The position numbers and the translations under genes are program-made. A DNA stretch of 64,000 nt from a virus. The DNA lies in the IMG/VR virus record IMGVR_UViG_3300009180_000041, positions 1 to 64,000 of that record, one strand, 5' to 3'. Below the pieces are notes generated by a model that saw only the letters and a list, made by a program, of their open reading frames with translations, did not search any database and was not told the DNA's origin. Positions 25,886 to 64,000 of the stretch are shown here, piece after piece; within the stretch, counting starts at the first letter, position 1; every line of letters starts with the position of its first letter.

Positions 25886-26275
25886 ATGATAAAATTAACT
25901 GAATTAATTACTAATGAAATTGAAGAATACGATGTTGAAAACATTAATGATGTTCGTTCGTTTATTCAATTTATGAGAGAATATAAGTCTACTGACTGTG
26001 GAACTTGTTTAAGAGAAGCAGAATACAAAGGCCGTAAGGTCCAACTAGGCAAGCCTATGCAAGGTGATGTTAAGAAGTTTAAGGTGTATGTTAAAAATCC
26101 TAAAGGTAAAGTAGTTAAAGTTAACTTTGGCTTTGGAGGTACATCTGCTAAAGGCAAACGAATGGTTATTAAGAAAAATAATCCAAAACGTAGGGCAGCT
26201 TACAGAGCAAGACACAACTGTAGTAATCCAGGACCAAGACATAAAGCAAACTATTGGTCTTGTAGAAAGTGGTAA
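25886..26275 (+). CDS. late protein with RARHNC/WSC cysteine motif (129 aa)
   Basis: N-terminal tag MIKLTELITNE matches the family of putative capsid-targeting tags and offers an I-T-N-E junction. The C-terminus KNNPKRRAAYRARHNCSN...KANYWSCRKW is a basic, two-cysteine block that I recall from T4-like marine phage proteins of unknown role. CGTC near residue 37 adds two further cysteines. It is probably a DNA-binding or structural protein of the prohead interior, by inference from tag and charge. Confidence 0.65.
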   Translation: MIKLTELITNEIEEYDVENINDVRSFIQFMREYKSTDCGTCLREAEYKGRKVQLGKPMQGDVKKFKVYVKNPKGKVVKVNFGFGGTSAKGKRMVIKKNNPKRRAAYRARHNCSNPGPRHKANYWSCRKW

Positions 26276-26276
26276 T

Positions 26277-26831
26277 ATGATTAAACTTACAAACATATTA
26301 AATCAAATTAATGAAAGTAAACAAGTAGGTAATTTATATCATTTTACTTATGATAGTTCTATACTTAATATACTTAAAAATGGTTTACGGTTTGCTCCAG
26401 ATAATACAGAATTAGATAAATATAAAGATACATTTTATATATCTACTACAAGAGACTACACAGGACATAAGTTTTATAATGAATTGGAAGCTAAAGTTAG
26501 AATTACATTAGATGGTAATAAAATTTCAGAAAGATATTTAATAAGACCTATTAGTGTAGAAAATATATGGGTAAAAAATAGTGGTTTAGATTGGAATAAA
26601 TCACCTGTTAAAGATGTATTTTATGAAGAAAGAATATTTTCATCAAAAGGAGGATATTTAGATCCAAAATATATAATTAAAATAGATACTACTATTACTG
26701 AAGAGGAAATAAAAAGAGGAATTAATTGGGGTAAAGAAGACAGTAATAGAATAACATATTTTGATAATAGTATACTCGATTATATTAATAGTGGTAAATT
26801 AAATTTTGTTAAAAATTTCAATGTAAAATGA
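26277..26831 (+). CDS. tagged late protein, possible ADP-ribosyltransferase-like
   Basis: I start this at ATG 26277 (184 aa), giving the tag MIKLTNILNQINES that is repeated almost exactly in the next gene. The body LYHFTYDSSILNILKNGL...FYISTTRDYTG...VRITLDGNKISERYLIRPI has a Y-H-F-T then S-T-R-D order, found in phage proteins of the ART/DarT-like type. It also has a late E-E-R-I-F segment. T4 Alt is an ADP-ribosyltransferase packaged in the capsid and injected with DNA. The tag plus this fold suggests an analogue, but the enzymatic call is tentative. Its stop overlaps the next ATG. Confidence 0.5.
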   Translation: MIKLTNILNQINESKQVGNLYHFTYDSSILNILKNGLRFAPDNTELDKYKDTFYISTTRDYTGHKFYNELEAKVRITLDGNKISERYLIRPISVENIWVKNSGLDWNKSPVKDVFYEERIFSSKGGYLDPKYIIKIDTTITEEEIKRGINWGKEDSNRITYFDNSILDYINSGKLNFVKNFNVK

Positions 26832-27466
26832 TTAAACTTACAAACATATTAAACCAAATTCTTCTTGAAGAAAAAACTAAACGTGACAGGTGTCTTAGGA
26901 TAGCTGATCGTAAGTTTGACAAACCATCAGCATATAAGTCTGGGGCTGTGGTTAGATGTCGTAGAGGTAAAATATGGAAAGACTTAAAAGAAGATACTAG
27001 AAATTATATTAATTGGAATGAAAATTATGGTAAAACTTTTAAAATAGTTAATACACCTGAAGGAGCACAATCTGGAGGTGAATGGAATCCTAATTTAGTT
27101 TCAATTGTAACACCAGAAAATAAAAATACTTGGAGTAATTGGAAGGAAGTTTCTCAAGATATTTTAAATAATTTTAAAAAAAATTGGGATGAAATTCAAA
27201 AATCTTTAGGAGACCATAAATACAACCAAATAATTAAAAGTCAACAATTAAACGAAGACGAAAGTCTTCATAAATGGTTCAAACGTCGAGGCCCTAAAGG
27301 TAAAGAAACCGGTTGGGTAGATTGTAACGCACCCGATGGAAAAGGAGGTTATAAGTCTTGTGGTAGAAAAAAAGGTGAGACACGTAGTAAGTATCCTGCT
27401 TGTAGACCTACTCCTAGTGGTTGTAAAAGAAAAGGTAAAGGTAAAACTTGGGGCAAAACAAAATGA
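26828..27466 (+). CDS. tagged two-domain basic cysteine-rich late protein (212 aa)
   Basis: Tag MIKLTNILNQILLEE, then domain 1 with RCLRIADRKFDKPSAYKSG and VRCRRGKIWK. A middle region leads to an internal junction QQLNEDES, then domain 2 with HKWFKRRGPKG...GWVDCNAPDGKGGYKSCGR...SKYPACRPTPSGCKRKGKG. Domain 2 resembles the DUF5872 type of cysteine/glycine-rich phage module. The two domains are separable at an L-N-E site, as in the polyproteins. Very basic; probably DNA- or capsid-associated. ATGA overlaps at both ends couple it to its neighbours. Confidence 0.65.
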   Translation: MIKLTNILNQILLEEKTKRDRCLRIADRKFDKPSAYKSGAVVRCRRGKIWKDLKEDTRNYINWNENYGKTFKIVNTPEGAQSGGEWNPNLVSIVTPENKNTWSNWKEVSQDILNNFKKNWDEIQKSLGDHKYNQIIKSQQLNEDESLHKWFKRRGPKGKETGWVDCNAPDGKGGYKSCGRKKGETRSKYPACRPTPSGCKRKGKGKTWGKTK

Positions 27467-27780: not shown

Positions 27781-28860
27781 ATGGAAAAGGTTTTTGATTT
27801 ACATAAATGGAAAGAAAAACAATTGTTCTTAAATGAACAAGACGAAGACTTTACTGTTGACGCACCTCATGAATGGGACACTATTGATTTAAAAGACGGA
27901 GACCTAATTATGCCTAATATGTGGCAACATAATACTAACACAAACCGTCTTTATGTTGATATTACTAAACCATTAATTGTAAAATACTATAAATCTATAG
28001 TATTTGGTGATGATAATGTGCAACTTCAGGATAGAAATGGAGAATATGAGGTTATTGATGTTGATAAATTTAATCAAACTTACTTAAAACCTGGATTTCA
28101 ATTTAGTGTACCAGGGAATTTAAGTGAAAGTAAGGAAGAAGACTTTACTGTTGACGCTCCTGAGGAATGGGGCTACGAGAATTTTAATGGTAATACTGAA
28201 GATTATACTGATTTAGAAAACTGGGCTAGACCTATTTTAATAAACGCTGGAATTGACCTAGAATACATTGATTACTACTTTATATGGATGAGGAATTGGG
28301 GCGATAGTTTAGAAGGATTTAAAAACATTTCACCTGAACAAATACTTCAAGACTTTGAAGAATGGAAAGAATACAATGTGGATGAGGAATTAGACGAGTC
28401 TACTGAAGAAGACTTCACTGTTGACGCGCCTGACGATTGGGATACTACTGATTTAAGAGCTGGTAGTACTATTACTCCTACTATGTGGAATCAAAATTTA
28501 GGTCCTGACTACAACTCTATAGATGATTGGATTGATGATCCTACTGAAAATCAAATAATTGATGATATTTTAAAAGACGATCGTGGAAAAGTATATGTGA
28601 TTTTCACTGGTGTAAACTCTAATATTCAAAATGTATACACATTAACTGATTTTAATAATTTATTAGATCCTAAATACAAAGTTATAACTAATTTAAATGA
28701 ATCTGAAGACGACTTTAATGTTGATGCACCTGATGATTGGAATAAAGAATACTTAACAGTAGGCAGTATTATTAAACCTGAAATGTGGGATCGTGAAAAA
28801 GCTATTAAAGCATTTGATTGGTGGGACGATGAAGAAAGAAAATGGTTAGATTTACCTTAG
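27781..28860 (+). CDS. repeat polyprotein, 5' part, repeats 1-4
   Basis: A 359-residue open frame ending at TAG 28858-28860. After a tag-like start (LHKWKEKQLFLNE) come repeats of about 100 residues. Each opens with L-x-E, an acidic run, then (F/W)(T/N/S)V(D/E)AP-x-(D/E)W and often TITPxMW. Each closes with LLKPGY-x-I-like text. Junctions seen here: FLNEQ, LSESK, LDEST, LNESE. The same frame continues without other stops through repeat 4 into the following gene, so the TAG splits one long coding unit. No enzymatic motif is visible. The junctions match the (L/I)xE sites cut by T4 prohead protease. Confidence 0.75.
   Translation: MEKVFDLHKWKEKQLFLNEQDEDFTVDAPHEWDTIDLKDGDLIMPNMWQHNTNTNRLYVDITKPLIVKYYKSIVFGDDNVQLQDRNGEYEVIDVDKFNQTYLKPGFQFSVPGNLSESKEEDFTVDAPEEWGYENFNGNTEDYTDLENWARPILINAGIDLEYIDYYFIWMRNWGDSLEGFKNISPEQILQDFEEWKEYNVDEELDESTEEDFTVDAPDDWDTTDLRAGSTITPTMWNQNLGPDYNSIDDWIDDPTENQIIDDILKDDRGKVYVIFTGVNSNIQNVYTLTDFNNLLDPKYKVITNLNESEDDFNVDAPDDWNKEYLTVGSIIKPEMWDREKAIKAFDWWDDEERKWLDLP
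28858..28860 (+). other. in-frame TAG interrupting repeat 4
   Basis: The codons before (KWLDLP) and after (EILRFTEVGNVRF) the TAG join smoothly into a normal repeat. Elsewhere TAG ends only a few early or minus-strand genes (18494, 23882, 24703, 11353, 16418) and no other late gene. Confidence 0.7.
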
Positions 28861-28923: not shown

Positions 28924-31900
28924 ATGTTTGGTTTAGATTTTATCAATACGGTACTAAAACCAGGATTTGAAATTACTAAAGAATTAAATGAGTCTGATGA
29001 ATGGTCTGTTGAAGCACCTAAAGATTGGGATAATATTGAATTAAAACAAGGTAGTACTATTACTCCTGAAATGGTAGATATGTCTAATATTCCTGAAAAT
29101 AATTTATACTGGTGGGAAGAAAAGATTATAGAATTAAATGTAGGAAAGATTTGGAAGTTAGATAAAGAATACATTGAATTAAAATATAAAATAACAGATG
29201 ATGAAGATCATAATTATATTTTAATGTATACAATTGACTTTTTAGAAATTTTAAAACCAGGTTATGTATTAGTTTTATCTGATGGAACCGTTTTAGAAAA
29301 ACAAGATTTAAATGAATCTACTGAAGATTTTACTGTTGACGCACCTCAAGATTGGGATGTGGAAATGTTAACAGTAGGTAGTATTATTACACCTGAAATG
29401 TGGATACCCAATATTGAAAGTGAGTTTACTGATACCTGGAATTGGGAAACAGGTTTAGACATAACTTCAATACCTTGGTTAATTACAGTTGTTCGTAAAA
29501 ATGAAGTAGTCTTAAGAAATAATGATGTGTATGGTGAGATGATATTTGGTTTTATAAATGAAATAAATAATTGTTTACAGCCTGAATATAGAATTACTAA
29601 TGACTTAAATGAATCTATTGAAGACGAGTTTAATGTTGAAGCACCTGATGATTGGGGTACATTAAATATAGGTGATCGTATTACTCCTAATATGTGGAAT
29701 ACAGATATTAAACTTAAAACACCTGGTAGTAGGATTATAAAAAAAACTTTAAATAATATGAAACAATCTACTTGGACTATTGAAGATCTACCATTAGATG
29801 ATTTAGATCATGTTTATTTATCAACCCCAGGTGATGAAACAATTATTAGTATAGATCTTTTAAATAATAGTTTAAAACCAGAATATCAAATTTATAATCT
29901 TAAAAAACTAAGAGAATCTACTGATGAATTTAATGTGGTAGCACCTAAAGAATGGGACAATACAGAATTGACTGTAGGAAGTACTATTACACCTGAAATG
30001 TGGAAACCTAATGCACAATGGATGTTTTCTAGTATTGATGTTTCAAAACCTATAACCATAGGTAAGAAAAGTAATCCAAGAATATATTTGTATCTTACTG
30101 ATGTAAAAGGAAGAGGAACTCATATTAACGCAGGTACTTTAAATAAATATTTAAAACGTAAGTATCGAGTTGTAGATGATGAAGCATTATATGAATCTGA
30201 AGACGAGTTTAATGTAGAAGCACCTGACGATTGGAATGTAAAAGAACTAGGAGTAGGTGATGAGGTTACTTGGGATATGTTTAAAACTGAAGAATTAGCT
30301 GACCATTGGATGGATGATTATGATGTAAAAATTATTAAAAATATTTATACTCGCCCAATTCACCCAAGTGCTATAGTATCTTTAACAAAACCTAATGGTG
30401 AGTCTGTTGGTAGTTGGTGGTTAGACAGTGTTGAAAGAGATTTAAAATCTGAATATAAAATTAAAGTACCTGACAATATGAATGAAAATGAAGACGAGTG
30501 GTCAGTTGAAGCTCCTAAAGATTGGGACAATTTTGACATTGAAATTAGAATGTCTAATACATATACTTTTTTCAATATTGAAACTGATGATGAAGCTACA
30601 GTAGATGAAGTAAAACTAGTTAAAACAAACTCAGATGAATTAATAAAGTATTTTGGTGATAATATTCCTTATGATTCAAGTCAAATTGAAGATTTACTTT
30701 ATGAAAAATACTTTAGAGACGATGATTTACAGGATTTTATAAATCAAAATGAAGTTGTTGAAGAAATACCTGATGAATTATATGGTGATGATTGGGACAA
30801 TGAATGGGATGGTGTTGATTTTGATGTTAAAATAGTTGGTAAAGTAAATGAAGTAGAAGATGAATGGTCTGTTGAGGCACCTCGTGATTGGGATTACCAA
30901 CAATTAAGTTTAGATGATACTATTACTCCTGAAATGTGGGATTTAAATAATCCTGAATTGGAAGACTACATTGATGATCCTACTGAAGATTGGAAAATTT
31001 TAGAACTGTATGCTAGTCGTGTAGGTAGTGATGCTTCAATTTTTATTCAATCACCTACTGGAGGTGAATTAGGTACTCAAATGGAAGAAATAAATAAACT
31101 TTTAAAACCAGGATATAAGATAGTTGTTAATAAATTAAATGAAGTAGATGAAGATGAATTTAATGTTGAAGCACCTGTAGACTGGAATAAAGAATACTTA
31201 ACAGCAGGAGATATTATTACACCTAGTATGATAAAACCTAAATTACCTATTGATTATAGATTTTACAAAAATAATACTAAAATTAAAAAAATAATGCCAC
31301 AAAGACATGGAGATGGAATTTTAATTAATACTGTGTTTGTAGATCAAGATGGACATGATCTACCATTTACTGATGACTTTCATTGGATTGAAGAATGGAA
31401 TCATAAATTAATAGAACCATATACAATTAGTCCTGAAAAGAATTTTGGTAGTAGTTTAAATGAATTACTTGATGATGAAGATGAGTTTAATGTAGAAGCA
31501 CCTAAAGAATGGGATACCACTAATTTAGGAATAGGTGATATAATTGAGCCTTTTATGATTGAACCTAAAGCTCAAATTGATACTTACATAGAGAATATTC
31601 CTAAAATTTTAAAATTGATGAAAAAATATCCAACTGAAATTACAGATATTTATAATGAATTCAAGGGAATACAGTTGAAACTTCCACAATGGTCACCACT
31701 TAAATTTACTATGAAATTATCAGATATACAAAGTATTTTAAAACCAGGATATGAAATTAGTAAACCAAGTACTTTAGATGAAGTAGATGAAGATGAGTTC
31801 GATGTTGATGCACCTAAAGAATGGGACATTAAAGTACTCACTACAGGAGACATTTTAACTAATGAACATTTAGGAACTGGTGGTAATACTGCTTATAAAA

Positions 31901-32463
31901 TCATTGGATTTGAAGATAATAGAGTTAAAATTGAAAAAGGAAAAATACTTAAAAGAGATACAGGAGATATTTTTGTTCCAAATACTCCATACATAACAAC
32001 AATACCTTTAAGTACACTTCAAAGAAGACTAAATCCTGGTTATGTTATAGAACCTCCTACTACTAAACTAAGTGAACTTTTAAAAGTAGATGATGAATTT
32101 GATGTAGTAGCACCTGATGAATGGAATGAATATGATAAAAACATAAGAGTAGTTATTGAAGCTGAAGTTTTTTCAGTTGATAATACTAATAATGCTAGTG
32201 AAGAATTAAGATGGACTACTGATAAAATTATTAATATTAATGAATTAGAAAATTATTCTTATGATTTTAAACCATTTTTAGGAAGTCCTCTAGATGTAAA
32301 AGCTTTAAACCAATGGGTTGATACTATTGAATTTGACTGGTGGGACTTTATGTTGAATGAAGGATATGAACCTCATATAATTTATACTGATCCTAATTTT
32401 GAAGAAGGTGATGAAATTGAAGACATGAGTATAGTACATAAAGAGCTACTTCCTGCAGATTAA
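28924..32463 (+). CDS. repeat polyprotein, 3' part, repeats 4-15
   Basis: A 1179-residue frame in the same phase as the upstream gene; the coding frame in fact reopens at 28861, directly after the TAG. It holds the end of repeat 4 and eleven more repeats, with junctions such as LNESD, LNEST, LNESI, LRES, LYES, MNEN, VNEV, LNEV, LNEL, LDEV and LSEL before each DEFNVEAP-type motif. Repeat bodies are strongly diverged while the junction and V(D/E)AP-x-xW block stay constant. The whole protein is very acidic. No initiation signal is evident at ATG 28924, so read-through or one broken gene is as likely as internal initiation. Confidence 0.75.
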   Translation: MFGLDFINTVLKPGFEITKELNESDEWSVEAPKDWDNIELKQGSTITPEMVDMSNIPENNLYWWEEKIIELNVGKIWKLDKEYIELKYKITDDEDHNYILMYTIDFLEILKPGYVLVLSDGTVLEKQDLNESTEDFTVDAPQDWDVEMLTVGSIITPEMWIPNIESEFTDTWNWETGLDITSIPWLITVVRKNEVVLRNNDVYGEMIFGFINEINNCLQPEYRITNDLNESIEDEFNVEAPDDWGTLNIGDRITPNMWNTDIKLKTPGSRIIKKTLNNMKQSTWTIEDLPLDDLDHVYLSTPGDETIISIDLLNNSLKPEYQIYNLKKLRESTDEFNVVAPKEWDNTELTVGSTITPEMWKPNAQWMFSSIDVSKPITIGKKSNPRIYLYLTDVKGRGTHINAGTLNKYLKRKYRVVDDEALYESEDEFNVEAPDDWNVKELGVGDEVTWDMFKTEELADHWMDDYDVKIIKNIYTRPIHPSAIVSLTKPNGESVGSWWLDSVERDLKSEYKIKVPDNMNENEDEWSVEAPKDWDNFDIEIRMSNTYTFFNIETDDEATVDEVKLVKTNSDELIKYFGDNIPYDSSQIEDLLYEKYFRDDDLQDFINQNEVVEEIPDELYGDDWDNEWDGVDFDVKIVGKVNEVEDEWSVEAPRDWDYQQLSLDDTITPEMWDLNNPELEDYIDDPTEDWKILELYASRVGSDASIFIQSPTGGELGTQMEEINKLLKPGYKIVVNKLNEVDEDEFNVEAPVDWNKEYLTAGDIITPSMIKPKLPIDYRFYKNNTKIKKIMPQRHGDGILINTVFVDQDGHDLPFTDDFHWIEEWNHKLIEPYTISPEKNFGSSLNELLDDEDEFNVEAPKEWDTTNLGIGDIIEPFMIEPKAQIDTYIENIPKILKLMKKYPTEITDIYNEFKGIQLKLPQWSPLKFTMKLSDIQSILKPGYEISKPSTLDEVDEDEFDVDAPKEWDIKVLTTGDILTNEHLGTGGNTAYKIIGFEDNRVKIEKGKILKRDTGDIFVPNTPYITTIPLSTLQRRLNPGYVIEPPTTKLSELLKVDDEFDVVAPDEWNEYDKNIRVVIEAEVFSVDNTNNASEELRWTTDKIININELENYSYDFKPFLGSPLDVKALNQWVDTIEFDWWDFMLNEGYEPHIIYTDPNFEEGDEIEDMSIVHKELLPAD

Positions 32464-32483: not shown

Positions 32484-33821
32484 ATGATTAAACTTAGAAA
32501 TCTTTTAAATGAAAGTCCTGCTCAACCAGCGCCAGCTAGACCTGAAAGAGCTCCTCAACCAGACGTAATGCCTGGTGCTCCTAAAACAAAACCTGAACCT
32601 CGTAGAAGAAGTACTCCAAATCCTAGTACTAGTCCAACACCTAGTCCTAAAGCTCAAACTAAAACTAAAGAAAGACCTCATCAAGCTCCAAAAGATGGTC
32701 CAAAACCAGGCCCAGTTGGTGAAGGCATAATGGATAAAATTGTAGCTAGATACAAATCTGAATTTAATAAATTACATGAGGTTGACTATGAAAAAATCTT
32801 TGATCCTGAAACTGTAGGTAAATTAAAAGGCAGTGTCACTCAAAGAATGCAAGGTAAAAATCCAATGCAATCAATGCAAACAATGATGCAACTTGCTCCT
32901 CAAATTGCTAGAATTGAAAGAGGATATGAAGATGTTTTAAGTGATTTAGCTAAATCAGTAGTATACGAAGCTTATCCTTATTTGAAATCTAATCAAGATA
33001 TTATTGAAATTGACGCTCAAATAGTTTCTCAAAGTCAAGTACAAGACGCTTTACAACCTGACAGTCCAAATGAAGAAGACATTGAAGACTTAGACGATAC
33101 TGAAAAAGAAGATATTATGGGTGATATGAAAAAAAGACGTATTATCAATAGTATTACAGCAGGTGGAGCAATAGGAAGTAAAACAGCACATTATTTACAA
33201 CAAGAATACTTAGACGTTATAGGTGATAATTTAAGTGACAAATACAGAGACATCAACCAAGCTTCTCTTGATATGATTGATTTTGTAGTTAGTCAAGGTA
33301 AACAAAACGCTCAAAGAATGGGTGGTAGTAAAGAAAGTAGTGTAGGTGCTGAAAGTGTATTTTGGGATTTTGAAAAAGAAAAATGGATTATTAAAGCAAG
33401 AGCAGTAAATTTTGCTGTGTTGATTCATGAAATTACAAAAGGAATGTATGAAATCATTAGTTTATTTGGTTTCAACAACTTAGAACGAGGTGAAAAAGTA
33501 GTAGGTAAAGTAGATAAATTATCTAATGAACCTGAAGACTTAGCTTATGGCCAAATGATTAGTAAAAATTTATTTGATTTAATCAATAAACTTGAAAGTA
33601 ATGTTACACCAGATGAAAGAGACGACTTCTTACAAGACGTTTATAAACTACCTAATGAAGAATTTATTAAACTAATTACTAATGTTATTAATAATAGAGT
33701 AGATACTAACCAAACAAACCAGTTAAAAGGTATGTTTAGTCAAATGAGACAAGACAAAACCGCAGATGATGCTGATAATAGTTTGTTTGAAAGACTACAA
33801 AGAATGGCAGGAATTAGATAA
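32484..33821 (+). CDS. tagged late protein with Pro-rich N-terminus (445 aa)
   Basis: Tag MIKLRNLLNES with an L-N-E|S junction. Next is a ~65-residue linker of P, A, T, K and R (about 12-78), then a helical, soluble ~360-residue body ending LFERLQRMAGIR. A central SITAGGAIGSKTAHY segment and a GGSKESSVGAES stretch are not assigned. The MAGI ending recurs in the late protein at 59132 (MQELAGI). Probably a virion or head-interior protein; the function is unknown. A terminator follows. Confidence 0.65.
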   Translation: MIKLRNLLNESPAQPAPARPERAPQPDVMPGAPKTKPEPRRRSTPNPSTSPTPSPKAQTKTKERPHQAPKDGPKPGPVGEGIMDKIVARYKSEFNKLHEVDYEKIFDPETVGKLKGSVTQRMQGKNPMQSMQTMMQLAPQIARIERGYEDVLSDLAKSVVYEAYPYLKSNQDIIEIDAQIVSQSQVQDALQPDSPNEEDIEDLDDTEKEDIMGDMKKRRIINSITAGGAIGSKTAHYLQQEYLDVIGDNLSDKYRDINQASLDMIDFVVSQGKQNAQRMGGSKESSVGAESVFWDFEKEKWIIKARAVNFAVLIHEITKGMYEIISLFGFNNLERGEKVVGKVDKLSNEPEDLAYGQMISKNLFDLINKLESNVTPDERDDFLQDVYKLPNEEFIKLITNVINNRVDTNQTNQLKGMFSQMRQDKTADDADNSLFERLQRMAGIR

Positions 33822-54512: not shown

Positions 54513-54520
54513 TGGCTGAC

Positions 54521-55360
54521 ATGATTTCTCTACGTTCCCTTTTATTAGAAGTATACGGAGGTCCAAAAGCCATTATTTTAGCTGGTGGAGCAGGTGTTGG
54601 TAAATCAACATTTACTAACACTTTAACACCTTTTTTACCTTCAAATTTTAAAATTTTTAATCCTGACACTCATAATCCAGATGACGATCCTAATAGACCA
54701 AATATAGCTAAAAATTCAGCTGATATTAGAAAAAATGCTATTCCTGACGCGATAAAAAACAAACAAAGTTTTGTTTATGATACTACTGGTCAAAATTTTA
54801 AAGAAACAGTTAAAATTATTCAAGAAGCTCAACAAGCTGGTTTTAAAGTAATGATGATTATGCTTTATGCTTCTCCAATTGTTAGTTTTTTAAGAAATTT
54901 TAGTAGAGACAGAACACTTCCTAAAGATGCTGTGTTAAACAATTGGGCTAAAGTTTATGGTTTAATAGATAATTATAAAAAGGTACCAAATCTAGAATTT
55001 GCTTTAGTTCAAACTGAATTAAAACCAAACGAAAGAGAAGATGTAGCTGAATTTAATAAAGCTTACTCAGAAAATGAATTAGAAGAGTATTTTAAACAAT
55101 TAATTCAAACTGATCCTTCAAAATACTATTCATCTTTTAGAAAACCAAAACCATCTGACATTGAAACCGCAGATGATCTACCAGATCCTGAAGAAGTAAA
55201 AGCTAAAGAAGAAAGAAAAAAAGAAAGTGAAAAAAGATTCTCAGATGCTATTAAAAATCTTAAAGATCAATTTAAACAAGTAGAAAAATATTTAAAAATA
55301 ATTAAACCTATGGACTATAAAGAAGTAGTAGGTACAGTGAAAACATTTACAAAACCATGA
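54521..55360 (+). CDS. zeta-toxin-like P-loop kinase with capsid-type tag
   Basis: Start at ATG 54521 gives MISLRSLLLE, matching the tag pattern with an L-L-E junction; a TTG extension (54512) lies in the promoter motif. The core is ILAGGAGVGKST (Walker A, about 18-29), FNPDTHNPD, SADIRKNAIP and VYDTTGQNF, then RDRTLPKDAV, the zeta-toxin/polynucleotide-kinase-like order. The C-terminal ~90 residues are a charged coiled coil (KAKEERKKESEKRF). Phosphorylates a nucleotide, sugar-nucleotide or nucleic acid; a packaged effector by inference. Overlaps the next gene. Confidence 0.7.
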   Translation: MISLRSLLLEVYGGPKAIILAGGAGVGKSTFTNTLTPFLPSNFKIFNPDTHNPDDDPNRPNIAKNSADIRKNAIPDAIKNKQSFVYDTTGQNFKETVKIIQEAQQAGFKVMMIMLYASPIVSFLRNFSRDRTLPKDAVLNNWAKVYGLIDNYKKVPNLEFALVQTELKPNEREDVAEFNKAYSENELEEYFKQLIQTDPSKYYSSFRKPKPSDIETADDLPDPEEVKAKEERKKESEKRFSDAIKNLKDQFKQVEKYLKIIKPMDYKEVVGTVKTFTKP

Positions 55361-58152
55361 TAGACGCTAAAGAAATAGGAAAACAAATAGCTGAAGATGT
55401 AGCTAATCCTCCTTTACCATGTTATTATCCTGGAGGTTTTAAACCACCAACAAAAGGACATTATGCCGCTGCTGAATTTTTAGCTGGTAAAAATTATATT
55501 AATCAAGTAAATGTTTTAATAGGCCAAGGTAAACGAGAAGGATATCCAATATCTGCTCAACAAAGTAAAGCTATTTGGGATCTTTATTTAAAAGCAAATG
55601 CTAATCCAAAAATTAAAGTAGCAGTATCTCAAAAAAATTCACCAATTGGAGACTTATTTACTTACTTTGCTGATTTAAATCATGAAGGTTATGTAGCTGG
55701 TGCTCAAGAAGAAATTGAAAAAGGTTATTTTTCTGTATTAAAAGAAAAATTTCCAGGTCGTGTTCGTGAACAAGTTATTGAAGATCAATTTGTAACAGGT
55801 GGAGAACGAGTTAGTGGAACTCAAACTAGAGAATTATTAGATGAGTTAAAAACTACATTTGATGCTTTACGTCAAGAACAAAAAGGAACTAAAGAATACA
55901 CTATAAAACTTAATGAGTATAATAATGCTTATGAAGCAGTGAAAACTATGGTTCCTGATGCTGTAATTCAAAAAGGATTATATGATGATTTTTTAAGAAT
56001 TTTAGGATTAAATCACCCTGAACCAAAATCATTACAAGAAGACAATAATTACAATAAAGAAAAAAATTGGGTTTGGTTAGAAGAATACAAAAATAAAAAA
56101 CAACTTAATCCAATGTTATTTGATGGTGAAAAATTAGATCCACAAGTAAAAGAATTATTATTAAAAATAGCTACAATATTTTGGGATGGTTTAGAAACTG
56201 ATGAACCTTTTGAAGATGTTGTTTTAACAGGATCATCAGCTAATTACAATTATACTAATAGTTCAGATGTAGACTTACATATTATTATTGATTTCAATAA
56301 GTTTAAAGAGCCAGAAAGAATGAAAAAGTTTTTTGATATGGCGAAAAACAATTGGAATAATACACATGATCCAAAACTTGGTAAACATCCTATTGAAATT
56401 TATGTTCAAGATTCTAATGAAACACACACTTCAACAGGAGTTTATTCAGTAATGAATGATGAATGGGAAAAGAAACCAGAGTATGAATCTATAAACATTC
56501 CTGATGGAAATATTAAGAAAAAATCAAAACCATTTAAAGAAAAAATAAATCAATTATTAAAAACAGGAAATAAAAATCCTGAAAAATCTATAGAACAAAT
56601 AAAAATAATACAAGAACGTTTAAAGAATTTTAGACAAGCTGGATTAGATAAAAACGGAGAATACTCAGTTGAGAATTTAGCATTTAAGGATTTAAGAAAC
56701 ACAGGTTATTTAAATAAATTGAATGATTTAAAAAATGAGTTAATTGATAAAACAATTTCATTAAATGAATCATTTCAAGAGAATATTCAATCATTATTAA
56801 ATAATTTTATGTCTTATGCTTGTCAAGAACTCCAAATTGAAAACCCGCCAACGTTGGAAATCCGAAACGAATTCGGAGAGGAACAACCTAGCTTTGGGGC
56901 TTATGTTCCCTCTGATCATCATATATTTATTAATCCTTCTAGTAGGAACATTGTTGACATTTATAGAACATTAGCTCATGAATTAGTTCATGCTAAGCAA
57001 AATGAGATGGGAATGTTAACACCAAATAGTGGTGAAACTGGTAGTGATCATGAAAATGATGCTAATAGTATTGCTGGTATTATTATGAGAGACTATGGAA
57101 AACAAAATCCAAAAATTTATAAAATTGGTGTATTAAATGAATCTAAGAATGATTGGAAAAAAACATCATGGGAAAATGAAAAAGGCCAAAAAGTAACATT
57201 GCCTCAACTTTTAGATATTATTAAAGATTATCCTATTATACAAGCACCTATTGGAAAAATTAAAAAAATAGTTATTAAAAAAGATACAGGAGGTATTGAA
57301 TCAGATAGATTAAATAAAGCTGATTTTAAACATCCTATTATTGTAGTTGTAGATGATCAAAATAATTTTAAATATATTTTAGATGGTAATCATAGAGCTA
57401 ATAAAGCTATAGATTCTAATTTAAAAACAATTCCTACTAAGTTAGTAAATATAAATAAATTACCTAAAAAATTCCAGAATGTATTAGATGAATCTGAAAC
57501 AAAAACAACTGTAACTTGTGACAACTGTGGTTGGACTTGGAAAAAGAAAGACGGAGGAAAAGATTTATATGTTTGTCATAAATGTGGAAATGATAATACT
57601 CCAAAAAATAAATTGAAAGAAGAAACAGAAAAAAATCCAAAAATTACAAGAATTTACTTTGATTTAGATGGAGTATTAGCTGGTTTTGATGATCAATTCA
57701 GAAAATACAATAAAGAAAAATTAGATTTTAAAGAATACATTGGAAAATATGGTTCAAGTAAAGCTTGGGACATAATTAACAAAGGAACAGACAAATACTG
57801 GTCAGGAATGGATTGGAATCCTGGTAGAAAAGAACTTTATGATTATGTTATGAAAATGGCTCCTCAAAAAAATATTGAAGTATGGGTACTATCAAGTCCT
57901 GGTTTAGATCCTAATGGAGACGCTAAAAAAGGCAAAAACGAGTGGTTAAATAAACATACAAATATTCCACAAAATCGTAGAGTATACAAACAAGCAAAAG
58001 ACAAACACACAGAAGCAAAACCAGGTTATTTATTAATAGATGATATGGGTAAAAATGTTAGTGAATTTATTAATGCTGGTGGAACTGGTATTAAAAACAA
58101 CCCAGAAAATTCCAAAGAATCAATAACAAAATTACATAAATTTGGATTATAA
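55357..58152 (+). CDS. 931-aa multi-enzyme polyprotein
   Basis: Domains in order: (1) HIGH-type nucleotidylyltransferase (YYPGGFKPPTKGH about 23-35; SGTQTRELL about 150-160). (2) Pol-beta-like nucleotidyltransferase (TGSSANYNYTNSSDVDLHI about 290-308). (3) HExxH metallopeptidase (LAHELVHAKQ about 538-547; ENDANSIA). (4) ParB/sulfiredoxin-like domain (LDGNHRANKA about 674). (5) zinc ribbon CDNC...CHKC (about 721-744). (6) HAD/deoxyribonucleotidase-like phosphatase (IYFDLDGVLAG about 766; VWVLSSP; LLIDDMG about 893). Junctions SLNESF, VLNESK and VLDESE separate domains 2/3, 3/4 and 4/5, the same sites as in the repeat polyprotein. Probably cut in the prohead and delivered as separate enzymes. 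Confidence 0.8.
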   Translation: MIDAKEIGKQIAEDVANPPLPCYYPGGFKPPTKGHYAAAEFLAGKNYINQVNVLIGQGKREGYPISAQQSKAIWDLYLKANANPKIKVAVSQKNSPIGDLFTYFADLNHEGYVAGAQEEIEKGYFSVLKEKFPGRVREQVIEDQFVTGGERVSGTQTRELLDELKTTFDALRQEQKGTKEYTIKLNEYNNAYEAVKTMVPDAVIQKGLYDDFLRILGLNHPEPKSLQEDNNYNKEKNWVWLEEYKNKKQLNPMLFDGEKLDPQVKELLLKIATIFWDGLETDEPFEDVVLTGSSANYNYTNSSDVDLHIIIDFNKFKEPERMKKFFDMAKNNWNNTHDPKLGKHPIEIYVQDSNETHTSTGVYSVMNDEWEKKPEYESINIPDGNIKKKSKPFKEKINQLLKTGNKNPEKSIEQIKIIQERLKNFRQAGLDKNGEYSVENLAFKDLRNTGYLNKLNDLKNELIDKTISLNESFQENIQSLLNNFMSYACQELQIENPPTLEIRNEFGEEQPSFGAYVPSDHHIFINPSSRNIVDIYRTLAHELVHAKQNEMGMLTPNSGETGSDHENDANSIAGIIMRDYGKQNPKIYKIGVLNESKNDWKKTSWENEKGQKVTLPQLLDIIKDYPIIQAPIGKIKKIVIKKDTGGIESDRLNKADFKHPIIVVVDDQNNFKYILDGNHRANKAIDSNLKTIPTKLVNINKLPKKFQNVLDESETKTTVTCDNCGWTWKKKDGGKDLYVCHKCGNDNTPKNKLKEETEKNPKITRIYFDLDGVLAGFDDQFRKYNKEKLDFKEYIGKYGSSKAWDIINKGTDKYWSGMDWNPGRKELYDYVMKMAPQKNIEVWVLSSPGLDPNGDAKKGKNEWLNKHTNIPQNRRVYKQAKDKHTEAKPGYLLIDDMGKNVSEFINAGGTGIKNNPENSKESITKLHKFGL

Positions 58153-59131: not shown

Positions 59132-60217
59132 ATGAATGAATTAAATAGAATTTTTTTCAAATATCGTGATAAAAATATTATTATGAAATGGACTGATAAG
59201 GATTTTGATAATCTTTATGAGGACTTAGTTCAATATTTTGATGGCGACTCAGATGAAGTAACTGAATTTATGGGGAGTGGACAAGCAGAACCATATTTGA
59301 AAAAATTTAATATTGATTTAATTGAACCTGAAGAATATAATATTAATCAGGATGAATTCCCTGGTCAAGCATCTGGTGATAGTACTATGATGGGACCAGC
59401 TATGGAAGAAGTAAAAAGAATGCAAGAATTAGCTGGTATTAAAGAAGTTGATTTCCCTCAATTATCATTTACTGGTGATCAATGGAAAACTGATCCAAAT
59501 AATCCAAATAAAAAAATACCTAAAGTAATAGCATTTAATTATCCAGCGGTAAAAGAAGCAATTGGTTCTGAAAATATTAAAATGTTTGCTAAAGTAGTAG
59601 GAAAAAACACAAGAGGAAGAGGTGCTGGTAGAGACAAAAAAGAATTTGCTTTATATATTTCAAAAGAATTAAAAACAGCTTTAGATCAAACAACAAGAGG
59701 TAGATCTAGTAGACAAATTGAAAAAGGTAAATGGGATTTAACTAAAAAATTAGATGAAGTTCCAAGTGCTGTAAAAAGTATTCTTAAAAAAGGTACTGAT
59801 GGTGGAAAATTAATGAGTGTAGGAACAGGTCCTCAAATGTATCAAGTTAGTTGGCCAGTTATGGGCCAATCAGTAAAAAATGAAGATCTTTATTGGTTAG
59901 TACCAGCTCATATGAAAGATTGGTTCATGGAAGAATCAGTGTTAAATGAAGAAAAAACAAAAGAAAAAGAAAGTGATTTAAATATAGGTTTAGTATTTGA
60001 CACTGAAGAATTACGTGATAAAGCTATACATAAATTAAAAACTCAAAAATTACCTTTAGTATATCATGCTAAAGACGCAGTTAATATTGAATTTCCTTTA
60101 GATAAAAATTCAAAATACAACAAAGAAAAAATAAAGTCTATAGTAGATAAAATTTCACAACAATTTACAAAAGTAAAATTTCATAACTCACTAACAGAAT
60201 TCTCAAATGAAGGATAA
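59132..60217 (+). CDS. late protein with internal L-x-E junctions (361 aa)
   Basis: The N-terminal ~110 residues are acidic and end KRMQELAGIKE. A basic domain follows (KVVGKNTRGRGAGRDKKEF, TTRGRSSRQIEKGKW). After SVLNEEKTKEKES, a short C-terminal alpha/beta domain begins. The LNE junction and LAGI motif link it to the tagged family. The basic central part could bind DNA. Overlaps the next gene by 11 bases. Confidence 0.6.
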   Translation: MNELNRIFFKYRDKNIIMKWTDKDFDNLYEDLVQYFDGDSDEVTEFMGSGQAEPYLKKFNIDLIEPEEYNINQDEFPGQASGDSTMMGPAMEEVKRMQELAGIKEVDFPQLSFTGDQWKTDPNNPNKKIPKVIAFNYPAVKEAIGSENIKMFAKVVGKNTRGRGAGRDKKEFALYISKELKTALDQTTRGRSSRQIEKGKWDLTKKLDEVPSAVKSILKKGTDGGKLMSVGTGPQMYQVSWPVMGQSVKNEDLYWLVPAHMKDWFMEESVLNEEKTKEKESDLNIGLVFDTEELRDKAIHKLKTQKLPLVYHAKDAVNIEFPLDKNSKYNKEKIKSIVDKISQQFTKVKFHNSLTEFSNEG

Positions 60218-60623
60218 TTTCGATATACACGAATGGCGTATAAAACAAGCCATGATAAATGAAGCAAAATTTAATGCTGAAAAATCAGATTTAAATAATG
60301 ATGATATAATATCACCATATGAAAAAAAACGTGGAATGGCTATTGCTAAAAACATGAATGAAGATGATTGGATGCAATCAGATGATGAAGCTGATATGGC
60401 TCACAGTCAACTTTATAACATTAAAAGATTATCTACAGAATTATGTGATATGATTGATTCTGAAGAACAATTAGACGCTTGGGTTCAAGCTAAATTAACT
60501 AAAGCTGAAGATTATTTACAATCAGTTTATGGTTATCTTTATGGTGAAGAAGCTCATAGTCAAAAAAGAAATGACAATCAAATAAATATCATAACAGGCG
60601 GTCAAGAAGGTCCAGGATACTAA
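60207..60623 (+). CDS. tagged small acidic late protein (138 aa)
   Basis: The start MKDNFDIHEWRIKQAMINEA parallels the polyprotein start (LHKWKEKQLFLNE): D-(L/I)-H-(K/E)-W-x(6)-(L/I)-N-E. The rest is acidic and helical, ending in a glycine-rich tail. Probably processed at INE|A in the prohead, by analogy. Confidence 0.6.
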   Translation: MKDNFDIHEWRIKQAMINEAKFNAEKSDLNNDDIISPYEKKRGMAIAKNMNEDDWMQSDDEADMAHSQLYNIKRLSTELCDMIDSEEQLDAWVQAKLTKAEDYLQSVYGYLYGEEAHSQKRNDNQINIITGGQEGPGY

Positions 60624-62395
60624 TGAATTTAGAAACTTTTAAAAAGATTTTTGCTCAAGAATTTGATAAATTCCAACAAGAAAGGAATCAAGATAAAGAC
60701 TCTTTAGAAAAGTTTGCGGATGACGTTCCTCATGATGAACAATTAGTACCTACTTTTGAAGAAGATCCAATAGGATTTATACTTTATTCATATCCTACTT
60801 TAAAAGAAACATTAGAAACATTATTAACTAAAGATTTTTTAGATTATATTACAGGTATTTATATTATTGCTCCAATACCTACTACTTTTAAAATTATTTT
60901 ACATAATAATCAATTTTTTTACATGATTTACATGGGAAGAACATGGATGGCTAAAGTAAGTGGTAAAAAATACTATTTATTAAACATAGGAGAAAGAGGA
61001 AGAGCAATTGATGCTATAGCTAGATTATTAATGATGGGTGCTCCATTAGGAACAGAACCAAATGGTGAAACTACTGAAAATATTTCAAATGCATCTCCTG
61101 AACCTTTAAGTGGTGATGGTGGTACTGAAGCAGGTGGAAATCCATTTGCTGCTGGCGCTGAAGAAACATCAACTGAAACACCAGCAGGTGAAGAAGAAAC
61201 AAATGCTCCATTAAAAGAATCAAAAATTCAAAAAAAATCAATTCTTTTAGAATTAAAAAATAAATTTCCTCATACATTTAGAACATTAGTAAGTCAAATC
61301 TTATTAACTGAAGCTAGTATGAATACTAACTCAGCTAAAGTAGTTCAAAGAATTATATCTAGTCCAGAAAATGCTGAGTATGGTTTTACTACTATGAAAA
61401 AAAATAATAGAGTAGGAAATTTAAAGCAAGTTCCTAAAGAAAAATTTGAAGAATTATTAAATAAATTATATCCAAACGCTGACATTCAAATAGTTCCACC
61501 AAAAGTAGAACCAAATATTGGTAATTTTGGAAGTAGTAAATTTTCAATGTATTCTTTTAATACAGAATACGGACCTGTAGGTATTGTTTTAGCCGCAGGA
61601 GCAAATAAAGGTGAAAAATACGAAAAAGAATTTTTATTAGCTTTAAAAGAAGCAGCAGGAAAAGAAAAAAGAGACATTAATAATCCAGAAATGATTCAAC
61701 TGTTTGATTATCTTGAATTAAACTCAGAAGAAATTACACCAGATGATGTAAGACAAACAGGAACTGGAAATAATAAACGTCAATTAAGTTTTGATGGACC
61801 TGAAGACATTGGAGAAAAAATAGCTGATATTACTATTGATGCTCCTAATACTACTTATTATTTGTCTATTAAAGATCCTAAAGGAACTGGTATTTACAAT
61901 GGTGGTAATGTTAAATTTGTTAAAGACTCACCTGATGGACCAGTTTTTGATCAAGAATCATTTATAAAAGACAATAGTTTAACAAAAGAATTATTTGAAA
62001 TGTTAAGTATTAATCCACAAAGAATAGCAGATGGATTAAAAGACTACATAAATAAAACAGGAGATGGAGAATCTTGGGAAGACATTCAAGACTATGATGA
62101 TACAGCATTAGTAAATCTATTAGCTTCTAGTTATGGTTATGGATACTACTATGTAAGACAAACTAAACCAGGTAATTTAAAAATAAAAGACTTAGAATCC
62201 CCAGAAGACACATATTCTTTTGTAGGTAGTATTAAATCTGTTAAAATAAAATATGCTAATAAATCAACTAAATCAACTGAAGTTAGAATAGAAACTAGTT
62301 CTCAAGATTTAGGTGATAATATCTATATAATATCAATTAGAAATGCAGCTGGATCTTTACTTCCTGTAGGTCTTAAAATACAAACATTAAAATAA
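60623..62395 (+). CDS. late protein, C-terminal possible PD-(D/E)XK nuclease (590 aa)
   Basis: N-terminal ~200 residues: a beta domain (TFKIILHNNQFFYMIYMGRTWMAKV) then an acidic G/E/T-rich linker. PLKES and SQILLTEAS are L-x-E junctions at about 195 and 230. The C-terminal ~350 residues have GEKYEKEFLLALKEA, EKIADITIDAPNTTYYLSIKDPKGTG and a later alpha/beta part. E...(A)DI...SIK fits the PD-(D/E)XK fold of restriction-type nucleases, though the lysine motif is SIK rather than ExK. A packaged nuclease against host DNA is an attractive but unproved reading. Confidence 0.55.
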   Translation: MNLETFKKIFAQEFDKFQQERNQDKDSLEKFADDVPHDEQLVPTFEEDPIGFILYSYPTLKETLETLLTKDFLDYITGIYIIAPIPTTFKIILHNNQFFYMIYMGRTWMAKVSGKKYYLLNIGERGRAIDAIARLLMMGAPLGTEPNGETTENISNASPEPLSGDGGTEAGGNPFAAGAEETSTETPAGEEETNAPLKESKIQKKSILLELKNKFPHTFRTLVSQILLTEASMNTNSAKVVQRIISSPENAEYGFTTMKKNNRVGNLKQVPKEKFEELLNKLYPNADIQIVPPKVEPNIGNFGSSKFSMYSFNTEYGPVGIVLAAGANKGEKYEKEFLLALKEAAGKEKRDINNPEMIQLFDYLELNSEEITPDDVRQTGTGNNKRQLSFDGPEDIGEKIADITIDAPNTTYYLSIKDPKGTGIYNGGNVKFVKDSPDGPVFDQESFIKDNSLTKELFEMLSINPQRIADGLKDYINKTGDGESWEDIQDYDDTALVNLLASSYGYGYYYVRQTKPGNLKIKDLESPEDTYSFVGSIKSVKIKYANKSTKSTEVRIETSSQDLGDNIYIISIRNAAGSLLPVGLKIQTLK

Positions 62396-62420: not shown

Positions 62421-64000
62421 ATGCCAGATTTAGGTTCATTAGTATTAAGAAACGTCAAAGGATCACCTCTTACTTTTACAGAAGGTGATAATAATATACA
62501 GTACGCTGCTTTACAATCACAAAGTGTTAGTTATACTACACATTATTTTCAAAGTAATAGTTTAATATTATCAAGATCTAATGGTGGTGGAATTGAAATT
62601 AAAGACTTAGGTACATTTACAGCTTCATATGCTATGAATGCTAGAACTGCTAGTTATGCTTTAAGTGCTTCTAATATAACTAATTATCAATTATACGCTA
62701 CTTATTCAAATTATGTTACTAATTCATTTACTATTTTAAGTGAATCTGTTGGAAGAGGTGGATTTTTTCAATTTACAGGTAGTTTTTCAATAACTAGTAG
62801 TAATGGAACTAGTCCTCAAACAGCTAGTTTTTATTTACCTACTACTTTCTATAGTGATGTGACATTAAGTGGTTCTACAACTAATATTGATGGAAATTTA
62901 CAAGTAGTTACTGGAGATAATTTTTTAAACGGAATAAGAATTTATAGAGGAGAAGAACCCGGTGTTGGATTTAAACAATTTTTAGCTCTAAATTTTGCTA
63001 ATGGAAATGGTAATATACTAGCATATGAACCACAGTATAATTCTCCTCGTATGCATTTTAGATTATCATCAAGCGCGACTGATATACCAGATAGTAAACC
63101 TTTACTTAATGGAAGATCATTACTTTCAATAGAAAAATTAGAAAATGACGATCCACATTTAATACTTGGTGGAACTTGGTTCACTGCAGCTGATTCAGCA
63201 TCATATACAAGTTATTTTAGTGGTTCAGCAGTATTTTTAGCAGGAGCCACAGGATCTTTACGAGGTACAGCGAGTGGAAATTTTGCATCTGCTTCTATAT
63301 CAAGTAATACTGTTACATTTTTCAATGGTTATAATCAAACTGCTGGAACTTTAAATTTAGCAAATAGTACTAATCAAAATTTACAATCTGTAACATCTGT
63401 TGGTAATTCAACTACATCTTCAGTTAATATAGGAGCTAATAATAGTTCATCATTATCATCAGTTGCATTTGGTTTAAATTCTATAGCAGTTGGTAGTTAT
63501 TCATTTTCTAATGGAAATACAGTATCAGCTTCTGGACTTTACAGTCATGCTGAAGGAGGACTTTCAACAGCTAAGGGTAATTATTCCCATGCTGAAGGAT
63601 TTCAGACTACAACTTTAGGCGTATCATCTCATAGTGAAGGAGAATCCACTACAACTATAGGAAATTATTCACATGCTGAAGGAATAAATACAATAGCATC
63701 TGGAAGTTATTCACATGCTGAAGGTTATTTAACAATAGCATCTGGAAGTTATTCACATGCTGAAGGTAGAAGTACAATAGCATCTGGAAGCTTTTCACAC
63801 GCTGAAGGTGGATTTACAATAGCTACAAATTTTGGTTCACATGCTGAAGGTTATACTACAAGAGCTTTAGGTGATTATACACATGCTGAAGGTAGTTTTA
63901 CAACAGCAATAGGACAATTTTCACATGCTGAAGGAGAATCAACAGTAGCTAAAAATCAAGCATCACATGCCGCTGGATTTAAAACCACAGCAAGTGCTGA
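62421..64000 (+). CDS. tail fibre/adhesin with SHAEG repeats, 5' part
   Basis: Open to the window end, so partial (526+ codons). The N-terminal part is S/T/N-rich. From about residue 360 there is a run of ~14-residue units of the form (S/T)HAEG-x-x-T-x-A-x-G-x-(Y/F), e.g. YSHAEGYLTIASGS, at least ten copies. These are the YadA-head-type (Hep/Hag) repeats of trimeric adhesins, common in phage fibres; they form a left-handed beta-roll. It likely binds the host surface. Repeats near-identical at DNA level (63,660-63,800) invite length variation. Confidence 0.85.
   Translation, partial: MPDLGSLVLRNVKGSPLTFTEGDNNIQYAALQSQSVSYTTHYFQSNSLILSRSNGGGIEIKDLGTFTASYAMNARTASYALSASNITNYQLYATYSNYVTNSFTILSESVGRGGFFQFTGSFSITSSNGTSPQTASFYLPTTFYSDVTLSGSTTNIDGNLQVVTGDNFLNGIRIYRGEEPGVGFKQFLALNFANGNGNILAYEPQYNSPRMHFRLSSSATDIPDSKPLLNGRSLLSIEKLENDDPHLILGGTWFTAADSASYTSYFSGSAVFLAGATGSLRGTASGNFASASISSNTVTFFNGYNQTAGTLNLANSTNQNLQSVTSVGNSTTSSVNIGANNSSSLSSVAFGLNSIAVGSYSFSNGNTVSASGLYSHAEGGLSTAKGNYSHAEGFQTTTLGVSSHSEGESTTTIGNYSHAEGINTIASGSYSHAEGYLTIASGSYSHAEGRSTIASGSFSHAEGGFTIATNFGSHAEGYTTRALGDYTHAEGSFTTAIGQFSHAEGESTVAKNQASHAAGFKTTASA
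63580..64000 (+). repeat. tandem ~42-base SHAEG repeats
   Basis: Direct repeats around TCACATGCTGAAGG recur about every 42 bases to the edge of the window. Neighbouring units near 63,690-63,780 share long identical stretches (AATAGCATCTGGAAG). Confidence 0.8.

Follow-up and report, generated by a model that had tools for sequence, protein, structure and literature searches.

A six-module enzyme chain with [LI]xE junctions in an uncultivated phage, probably a precursor of injected head proteins

We analyzed 64,000 nucleotides (the window; 28% G+C) that make up most of the 65-kb IMG/VR virus record IMGVR_UViG_3300009180_000041. At positions 55357 to 58152, the window carries a gene for a 931-residue protein in which six modules are joined by short linkers, each containing the motif [LI]xE. 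In phage T4, the prohead protease gp21 cleaves after L/I-x-E (PMC9026906). We propose that the chain is probably a precursor of internal head proteins that a gp21-type prohead protease cuts and that are injected into the host. A preliminary description of the DNA had suggested a beads-on-a-string precursor cut by a virion protease; given the L/I-x-E rule, the placement of the sites in linkers, the module ends, and the leader ends, this is the best-supported reading.

Six modules in one chain

The open reading frame (ORF) begins and ends exactly where the preliminary description had placed it, and the multi-domain content described there was upheld by the ORF check, profile searches, an AlphaFold2 model, and fold comparison. 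A second metagenome contig, L002, independently carries the same 931-residue gene, assembled nearly unchanged, and orthologs occur in L003, L021, L157, and L159. The gene and its parts are on the plus strand, as are the window genes starting at 26828, 27781, 28924, 32484, 54518, 59132, and 60623 that are described below. It opens with a leader, MIDAKEIGKQIAE/D (55357 to 55395; the slash marks the predicted cut), defined by ortholog comparison and ending in IAE/D at E13. Module 1 (residues 14 to 228; 55396 to 56040) is an NMNAT/NadD-like nucleotidylyltransferase, recognized by the motifs GGFKPPTKGH and VSGTQTR, by Foldseek similarity to NadD, and by stand-alone relatives; the HIGH-type motif reported earlier is present as the (T/H)xGH variant PPTKGH. 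Module 2 (residues 229 to 471; 56041 to 56769) is a Pol-beta-type nucleotidyltransferase (NTase), assigned by alignment and by PHROG 36119, which matches residues 245 to 469 (E value, 2.6e-43) and whose own last model position falls at the SLNES junction. Module 3 (residues 472 to 595; 56770 to 57141) is a zincin metallopeptidase with an HELVH motif and profile and fold matches. Module 4 (residues 596 to 712; 57142 to 57492) is ParB-like, with matches to PHROG 723 and 17560 and the previously noted DGNHR motif within LDGNHR. Module 5 (residues 713 to 755; 57493 to 57621) is a highly mobile zinc ribbon, CDNCGWTW...CHKCG, identified from cysteine-aligned contexts. Module 6 (residues 756 to 931; 57622 to 58152) is a HAD-type 5'(3')-deoxyribonucleotidase with DLDGVL and LIDD motifs; the match to PHROG 2643 (5'-3' deoxyribonucleotidase) begins at residue 762 (E value, 4e-17), and PDB profile and fold matches point to the same enzyme.

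Fold comparison of the model with Foldseek placed 5'(3')-deoxyribonucleotidase and NadD among the best matches in the PDB, and IrrE-like zincins were among the matches to viral models. Pfam gave subthreshold matches to NTP_transf_2, a metallopeptidase (DUF6782/M91), and NT5C. NCBIfam profiles added nothing useful to the domain assignment, and the NTase profile had no significant match in the PDB. In the alignment, both catalytic aspartates of the module 2 NTase are kept. Because the catalytic residues of the NTase and HAD modules look intact at the sequence level, enzymatic activity of both is plausible. With its six modules, the chain has the two or more unrelated enzymatic domains by which polyvalent proteins of mobile elements are recognized.

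The motif lies in exposed linkers

All five linkers between modules contain [LI]xE. The first junction, SLQE/D (LQE/D, residues 226 to 229, cut at E228; 56032 to 56043), starts a linker at residues 229 to 239 with a predicted local distance difference test score (pLDDT) below 50; L226 and E228 are invariant. The second, SLNE/S (LNE/S, residues 469 to 472, E471; 56761 to 56772), has pLDDT below 50 at 469 to 472, and L469, E471, and S472 are invariant among orthologs while residue 470 is N, T, or V. The third, VLNE/S (LNE/S, residues 593 to 596, E595; 57133 to 57144; pLDDT below 50 at 592 to 604), is a cassette boundary in the orthologs. VLDE/S (LDE/S, residues 710 to 713, E712; 57484 to 57495) and KLKE/E (LKE/E, residues 753 to 756, E755; 57613 to 57624) lie in or at segments with pLDDT below 50 at 702 to 716 and 749 to 758, respectively. 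The SLNES (468 to 472), VLNES (592 to 596), and VLDES (709 to 713) sequences that had been noted before are thus all found at domain boundaries, and our analysis adds SLQE/D, KLKE/E, and the leader end IAE/D to them.

The AlphaFold2 model of the chain had a mean pLDDT of 78.8 and a predicted template modeling score of 0.38, a pattern that, in this model, is that of confident domains without a fixed mutual arrangement. Fifteen copies of [LIVM]xE occur in the chain; just five, all of them junctional, are in or within three residues of segments with pLDDT below 50. No junction falls inside a folded domain of the model, so the structural objection foreseen in the preliminary description did not arise. 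An accessible L/I-x-E, as gp21 substrates have, is therefore present at five linker sites and in the leader. Few L[ND]E[SAG]-type motifs occur in the ORFs of the window.

Modules are exchanged at the junctions

We compared five orthologs, namely, the window gene and four relatives that are 65 to 79% identical to it in the aligned parts. The order NMNAT, NTase, zincin, HAD is constant, and the interval between zincin and HAD is variable and bounded by the motif. This interval holds the ParB-like module and the zinc ribbon in the window, the zinc ribbon alone in L003 (GVLNE/SETKK), nothing in L157 (GMLNE/SKETNPPITRI), the zinc ribbon plus a second peptidase-like HELAH module as a cassette in L021 (residues about 640 to 840), and an unrelated module reaching from MLNE/SRNGW to WLNE/SKQ in L159. 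The ParB-like module is missing from the other four orthologs and occurs in an unrelated 507-residue protein of L004. Since there is a junction at the end of each module, the modules can be gained, dropped, or exchanged as cassettes. At the junctions, an aliphatic residue at P3 and glutamate at P1 are kept, with N, D, Q, K, T, or V at P2. Likewise, I11 (P3) and E13 (P1) of the leader are invariant in all five orthologs, and its P2 is variable. The junction codons vary synonymously (TTA/TTG/CTA, GAA/GAG, and TCT/TCA) while the residues remain constant.

Among isolate genomes, no fused relative covering 80% of the query was found; apart from Flavobacterium phage immuto, which has a partial chain and a separate HAD gene, only single modules were detected. 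Further motif-bounded cassettes recur in changing order in L022, L031, L034, L035, L038, and L042; examples are PLNE/DDPKKGTGKKPKGSGRRLYT and EGRYDxEVTMISRMI, the latter also present in immuto gp182.

Junctions correspond to the leader ends of stand-alone relatives

Where relatives of the modules are encoded as separate proteins, they start with a short leader whose end corresponds to the position of the internal junction in the fused chain. These leaders are MNYKQFLRE/S, MKVHEILTE/G, and MKIREILSE/G for zincins, MGKLKDLLLE/K for a HAD protein, MKKLISE/L for an NTase, and MKNFSSFLTE/A for an NMNAT. In T4, the first ten residues of IPIII are enough to direct a protein into the head (PMC9026906). 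The chain also starts like an internal head protein, with a short leader ending in the protease motif (IAE/D), although MKxxxxLxE leaders are clearer in the stand-alone relatives than in the chain.

The same correspondence could arise if leader-bearing genes for internal proteins had been fused, leaving each LxE as the remnant of an old leader within a polyvalent protein that is packaged uncut. Fusion would leave such traces, and multi-domain packaged phage proteins that stay whole, such as the N4 virion RNA polymerase, are known (PMC5512222). However, scars would decay evenly, whereas the internal junctions keep P3 and P1 alone and neither P2 nor the targeting part of the leader; moreover, a newly arrived cassette has the motif at each of its ends from the outset. 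We therefore regard fusion scars as an improbable explanation and processing of the chain after [LI]xE as the better one.

A relative encodes the T4-type head genes

The relative G001 (179.7 kb, 77% identical) encodes a Peptidase_S77 prohead protease (E value, 5.7e-34), a gp23 capsid protein (E value, 2.5e-75), a scaffold protein, and leader-bearing proteins. An S77 prohead protease is also encoded by immuto. In an alignment to T4 gp23, the sequence FLTE/AE, which we take to be the maturation site, corresponds to LIVE/TN in G001 and IVSE/AN in immuto. The proteases themselves have an LNE near the C terminus, GGLNE/SK in G001 and ISLNE/GK in immuto. Such a site is expected because gp21-type proteases are reported to undergo C-terminal processing (PMC9026906).

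The chain might instead be cut by its own zincin, before packaging or after injection. All five orthologs have the HELVH zincin, and processing by embedded peptidases was proposed for polyvalent proteins by Iyer et al. (PMC5512222). However, the same motif is found in the leaders and junctions of proteins without a zincin, in a repeat polyprotein of the window, and in the scaffold, capsid protein, and prohead protease, and L/I-x-E is the demonstrated gp21 rule. We know of no cleavage site for zincins of this group. Cutting by the zincin is thus very unlikely, and a gp21-type enzyme remains the favored protease.

Enrichment of the motif upstream of modules

We collected the stretches upstream of the six modules from about 300 fetched loci, deduplicated them, and derived expectations from shuffles. 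[LI]xE was present in 87 of 116 N-terminal leaders against 40.7 expected (z = 9.9) and in 85 of 118 internal junction contexts against 37.5 expected (z = 10.3); LxD, LxK, and LxQ were at expectation in the internal contexts. The zinc ribbon was aligned on its cysteines, independently of the motif, using 34 deduplicated contexts with dissimilar upstream sequence. Glutamate was at position -9 in 31 of them (3.8 bits) and L, I, or V was at -11 in 24, with near-background levels at -10 and at all positions before -11. This L/I-x-E profile did not depend on picking sites by their motif. When 829 ORFs were compared all against all, L[ND]E was enriched 11-fold at sharp homology starts and LxD and LxK were not; with loose homology limits, the signal in this breakpoint test was diluted, and it emerged only with sharp breakpoints.

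An effect of recombination or linker composition, in which AT-rich acidic linkers share short DNA (GTATTAAATGAATCT) that promotes exchange without any protease, would fit two window junctions that are identical at 14 of 15 bases, but it is hardly credible given that the residues stay while synonymous codons vary, that shuffles keeping local composition do not reproduce the motif, that internal junctions show no enrichment of LxD, LxK, or LxQ, and that N-terminal leaders, which involve no fusion, end in the motif as well.

Several observations weigh against a protease-cut, packaged precursor. The motif is short and common, and ten further [LIVM]xE copies lie elsewhere in the chain. The ParB-like module, for which few relatives were at hand, is poorly modeled and supplies part of the low-confidence sequence. 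Among the internal contexts, 33 of 118 lack [LI]xE within 25 residues, and N-terminal leaders show an excess of LxD too (z = 4.4). Across the entire G001 proteome, a generic leader pattern showed only weak enrichment (18 found, 11 expected; P = 0.017), and across the window ORFs it showed none; because of this, the leader claim rests on the homologous stand-alone modules. The 65-kb window record, a fragment, has no prohead protease gene, and a capsid gene was likewise not found there. Finally, the virion proteome discussed next comes with its authors' caution that virion-detected proteins may be carry-over (PMC10665884).

Related proteins in virions and a proposed route of delivery

Mass spectrometry of virions of cyanophage S-CREM2 detected ORF154 (cytidylyltransferase) with 3 unique peptides, ORF155 with 5 peptides, and ORF156 with 6 peptides (PMC10665884, Table 3). 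We found that ORF154 is an NMNAT homolog related to module 1 and that ORF156 (126012 to 126725) is a relative of the module 2 NTase. Their leaders end in LTE and ISE, respectively, and, unlike the chain modules, they are encoded by separate genes. By analogy, the S-CREM2 virion proteome gives indirect support to the delivery of the chain modules at infection. The open-access literature, searched also on capsid targeting in cyanophages and on immuto virion proteomics, yielded no earlier report.

We infer the following course of cleavage, packaging, ejection, and host function. The precursor would enter the core of the T4-like prohead, a step in which its short N-terminal leader probably helps. 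A gp21-type (S77) protease would then cut after the glutamate of each exposed linker [LI]xE and of the leader, at E13, E228, E471, E595, E712, and E755, to give six products: NMNAT-like (14 to 228), Pol-beta NTase (229 to 471), zincin (472 to 595), ParB-like (596 to 712), zinc ribbon (713 to 755), and deoxyribonucleotidase (756 to 931). The released proteins would stay in the head beside the DNA and leave with it when the phage infects a host; in that cell, the enzymes active on NAD and nucleotides could act ahead of new synthesis. The takeover or antidefense functions suggested in the preliminary description would be putative roles of these products. The small size of the products matters here: T4 IPI is believed to go through the portal, of roughly 30 angstroms, without unfolding (PMC9026906).

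Module swapping at the motif points to a general means of stocking a virus particle with a kit of proteins for injection. We lean toward the view that, in T4-superfamily phages of freshwater and marine bacteria, the prohead protease is a general polyprotein processor for interchangeable injected cassettes, each starting after [LI]xE. In a cassette encoded as its own gene, the site would be the end of the leader; where cassettes are joined, it would be the cutting site, so that the kit could be reassorted with the packaging signal unchanged. If true, a protease of capsid maturation has taken on the processing of multi-enzyme effector precursors, and the motif is a sequence-only key to the packaged proteins of T4-like phages, their cut sites, and the delivered modules. 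It would also explain why unrelated enzymes (for NAD synthesis, nucleotide hydrolysis, nucleotidyl transfer, and peptidase activity) recur fused, in changing order, in uncultivated phages.

Comparison with known systems

The individual ingredients are all known; what would set the chain apart is that a capsid protease frees several enzymes from it. T4 IPI, IPII, IPIII, and Alt, which have a gp21-cut capsid targeting sequence, resemble the chain in their short N-terminal leader ending in L/I-x-E and in their internal head location, expected for the chain as well, and the close relative has T4-like protease, scaffold, and gp23 genes. However, published T4 cleavages trim short propeptides or degrade scaffold, whereas the chain would release several folded enzymes. 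In the open-access literature (most subscription papers lay outside the search), we found no earlier account in which a T4-type protease releases several enzymes from a single chain.

Polyvalent proteins of phages and conjugative elements (Iyer et al. 2017, PMC5512222) share with the chain many unrelated enzymatic domains, including zincin, ParB-like, and Pol-beta NTase domains, an exchangeable architecture, and predicted delivery with the DNA. For these proteins, the proposed processing is by zincins within the chain or by C-terminal assemblin-like peptidases, and their Pol-beta NTases are reported from conjugative elements only; in the sections of that study considered here, we found neither an [LI]xE junction code nor a mention of NMNAT or deoxyribonucleotidase modules. 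In phiKZ and SPN3US, many head and ejected proteins are likewise cut, by gp175 and gp245, after the glutamate of a three-residue motif; the phiKZ motif, unlike that of the chain, is S/A-x-E (PMC9026906). In SPN3US, 13 of 14 mapped sites remove N-terminal propeptides, and the remaining one is an autocleavage site (PMC10052503). The polyproteins of eukaryotic RNA viruses resemble the proposed chain in that a virus protease frees functional proteins from one chain. However, there is no homology, the protease proposed for the chain is a separate structural-assembly enzyme, and its modules are optional cassettes.

Other motif-bearing genes of the window

The preliminary description had also likened the junctions of the chain to those of a repeat polyprotein, and [LMV]xE indeed lies just before nearly every repeat. 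This polyprotein has about 15 divergent units of 90 to 120 residues (30% mean column identity), each opening with [FW]xV[EDV]AP..W. Repeat analysis placed four units of about 95 residues, with LxE before each, at 27781 to 28860 and, at 28924 to 32463, 11 units with [LMV]xE in front of nearly all of them. The model of one unit from the second part shows a small domain rich in beta strands that ends in a disordered tail with LNES; its predicted fold had no significant match in the PDB, and no homologs of the polyprotein were found in the named phages searched. Its G001 counterpart has another unit start (FELGDEDLELAK) and an identical junction scheme.

Two genes downstream of the chain gene also carry module boundaries of this kind. 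The first (59132 to 60217) has a junction-to-junction module, AGIKE/VDFP...SVLNE/EKTK, that is missing in the G001 ortholog. The second (60623 to 62395) has an extra C-terminal module after PLKE/SK; the L003 counterpart ends there, and a different leader gene follows. Immediately upstream of the chain gene is a gene for a zeta-toxin/P-loop kinase-like protein (54518 to 55360; Pfam Zeta_toxin, E value 7.6e-11) with the leader MISLRSLLLE/V; this kinase is possibly packaged too.

A leader and ORF scan found a head-region protein (32484 to 33821) with the leader MIKLRNLLNE/S and the C-terminal sequence LQRMAGIR. By sequence inspection, the gene at 26828 to 27466 encodes a leader, MIKLTNILNQILLE, followed by DUF5872-like modules with an internal QQLNE/DES junction. 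At 26178 to 26831, the leader MIKLTNILNQINE/S precedes YHFT..ILKNGL, which resembles the start of ADP-ribosyltransferase-type domains; there was no Pfam match.

The motif RMQKLAGI, often followed by xxE, is located at the extreme C-terminal end of the gp22-like scaffold protein and recurs in the N-terminal leaders or at the ends of other proteins. In the window, it is found in the products of 59132 to 60217 (residue 97) and 32484 to 33821 (C terminus); elsewhere, it is at the C terminus of the product of G001 124718 to 126100 and at N termini in L005, L021, L024, L039, L157, L159, and L288. RMQKLAGI may therefore mimic the tail of the scaffold and act as a second signal for targeting to the head. 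Near the end of the window (62421 to 63998) is a structural protein with repeated SHAEG units in the style of the head domain of trimeric adhesins.

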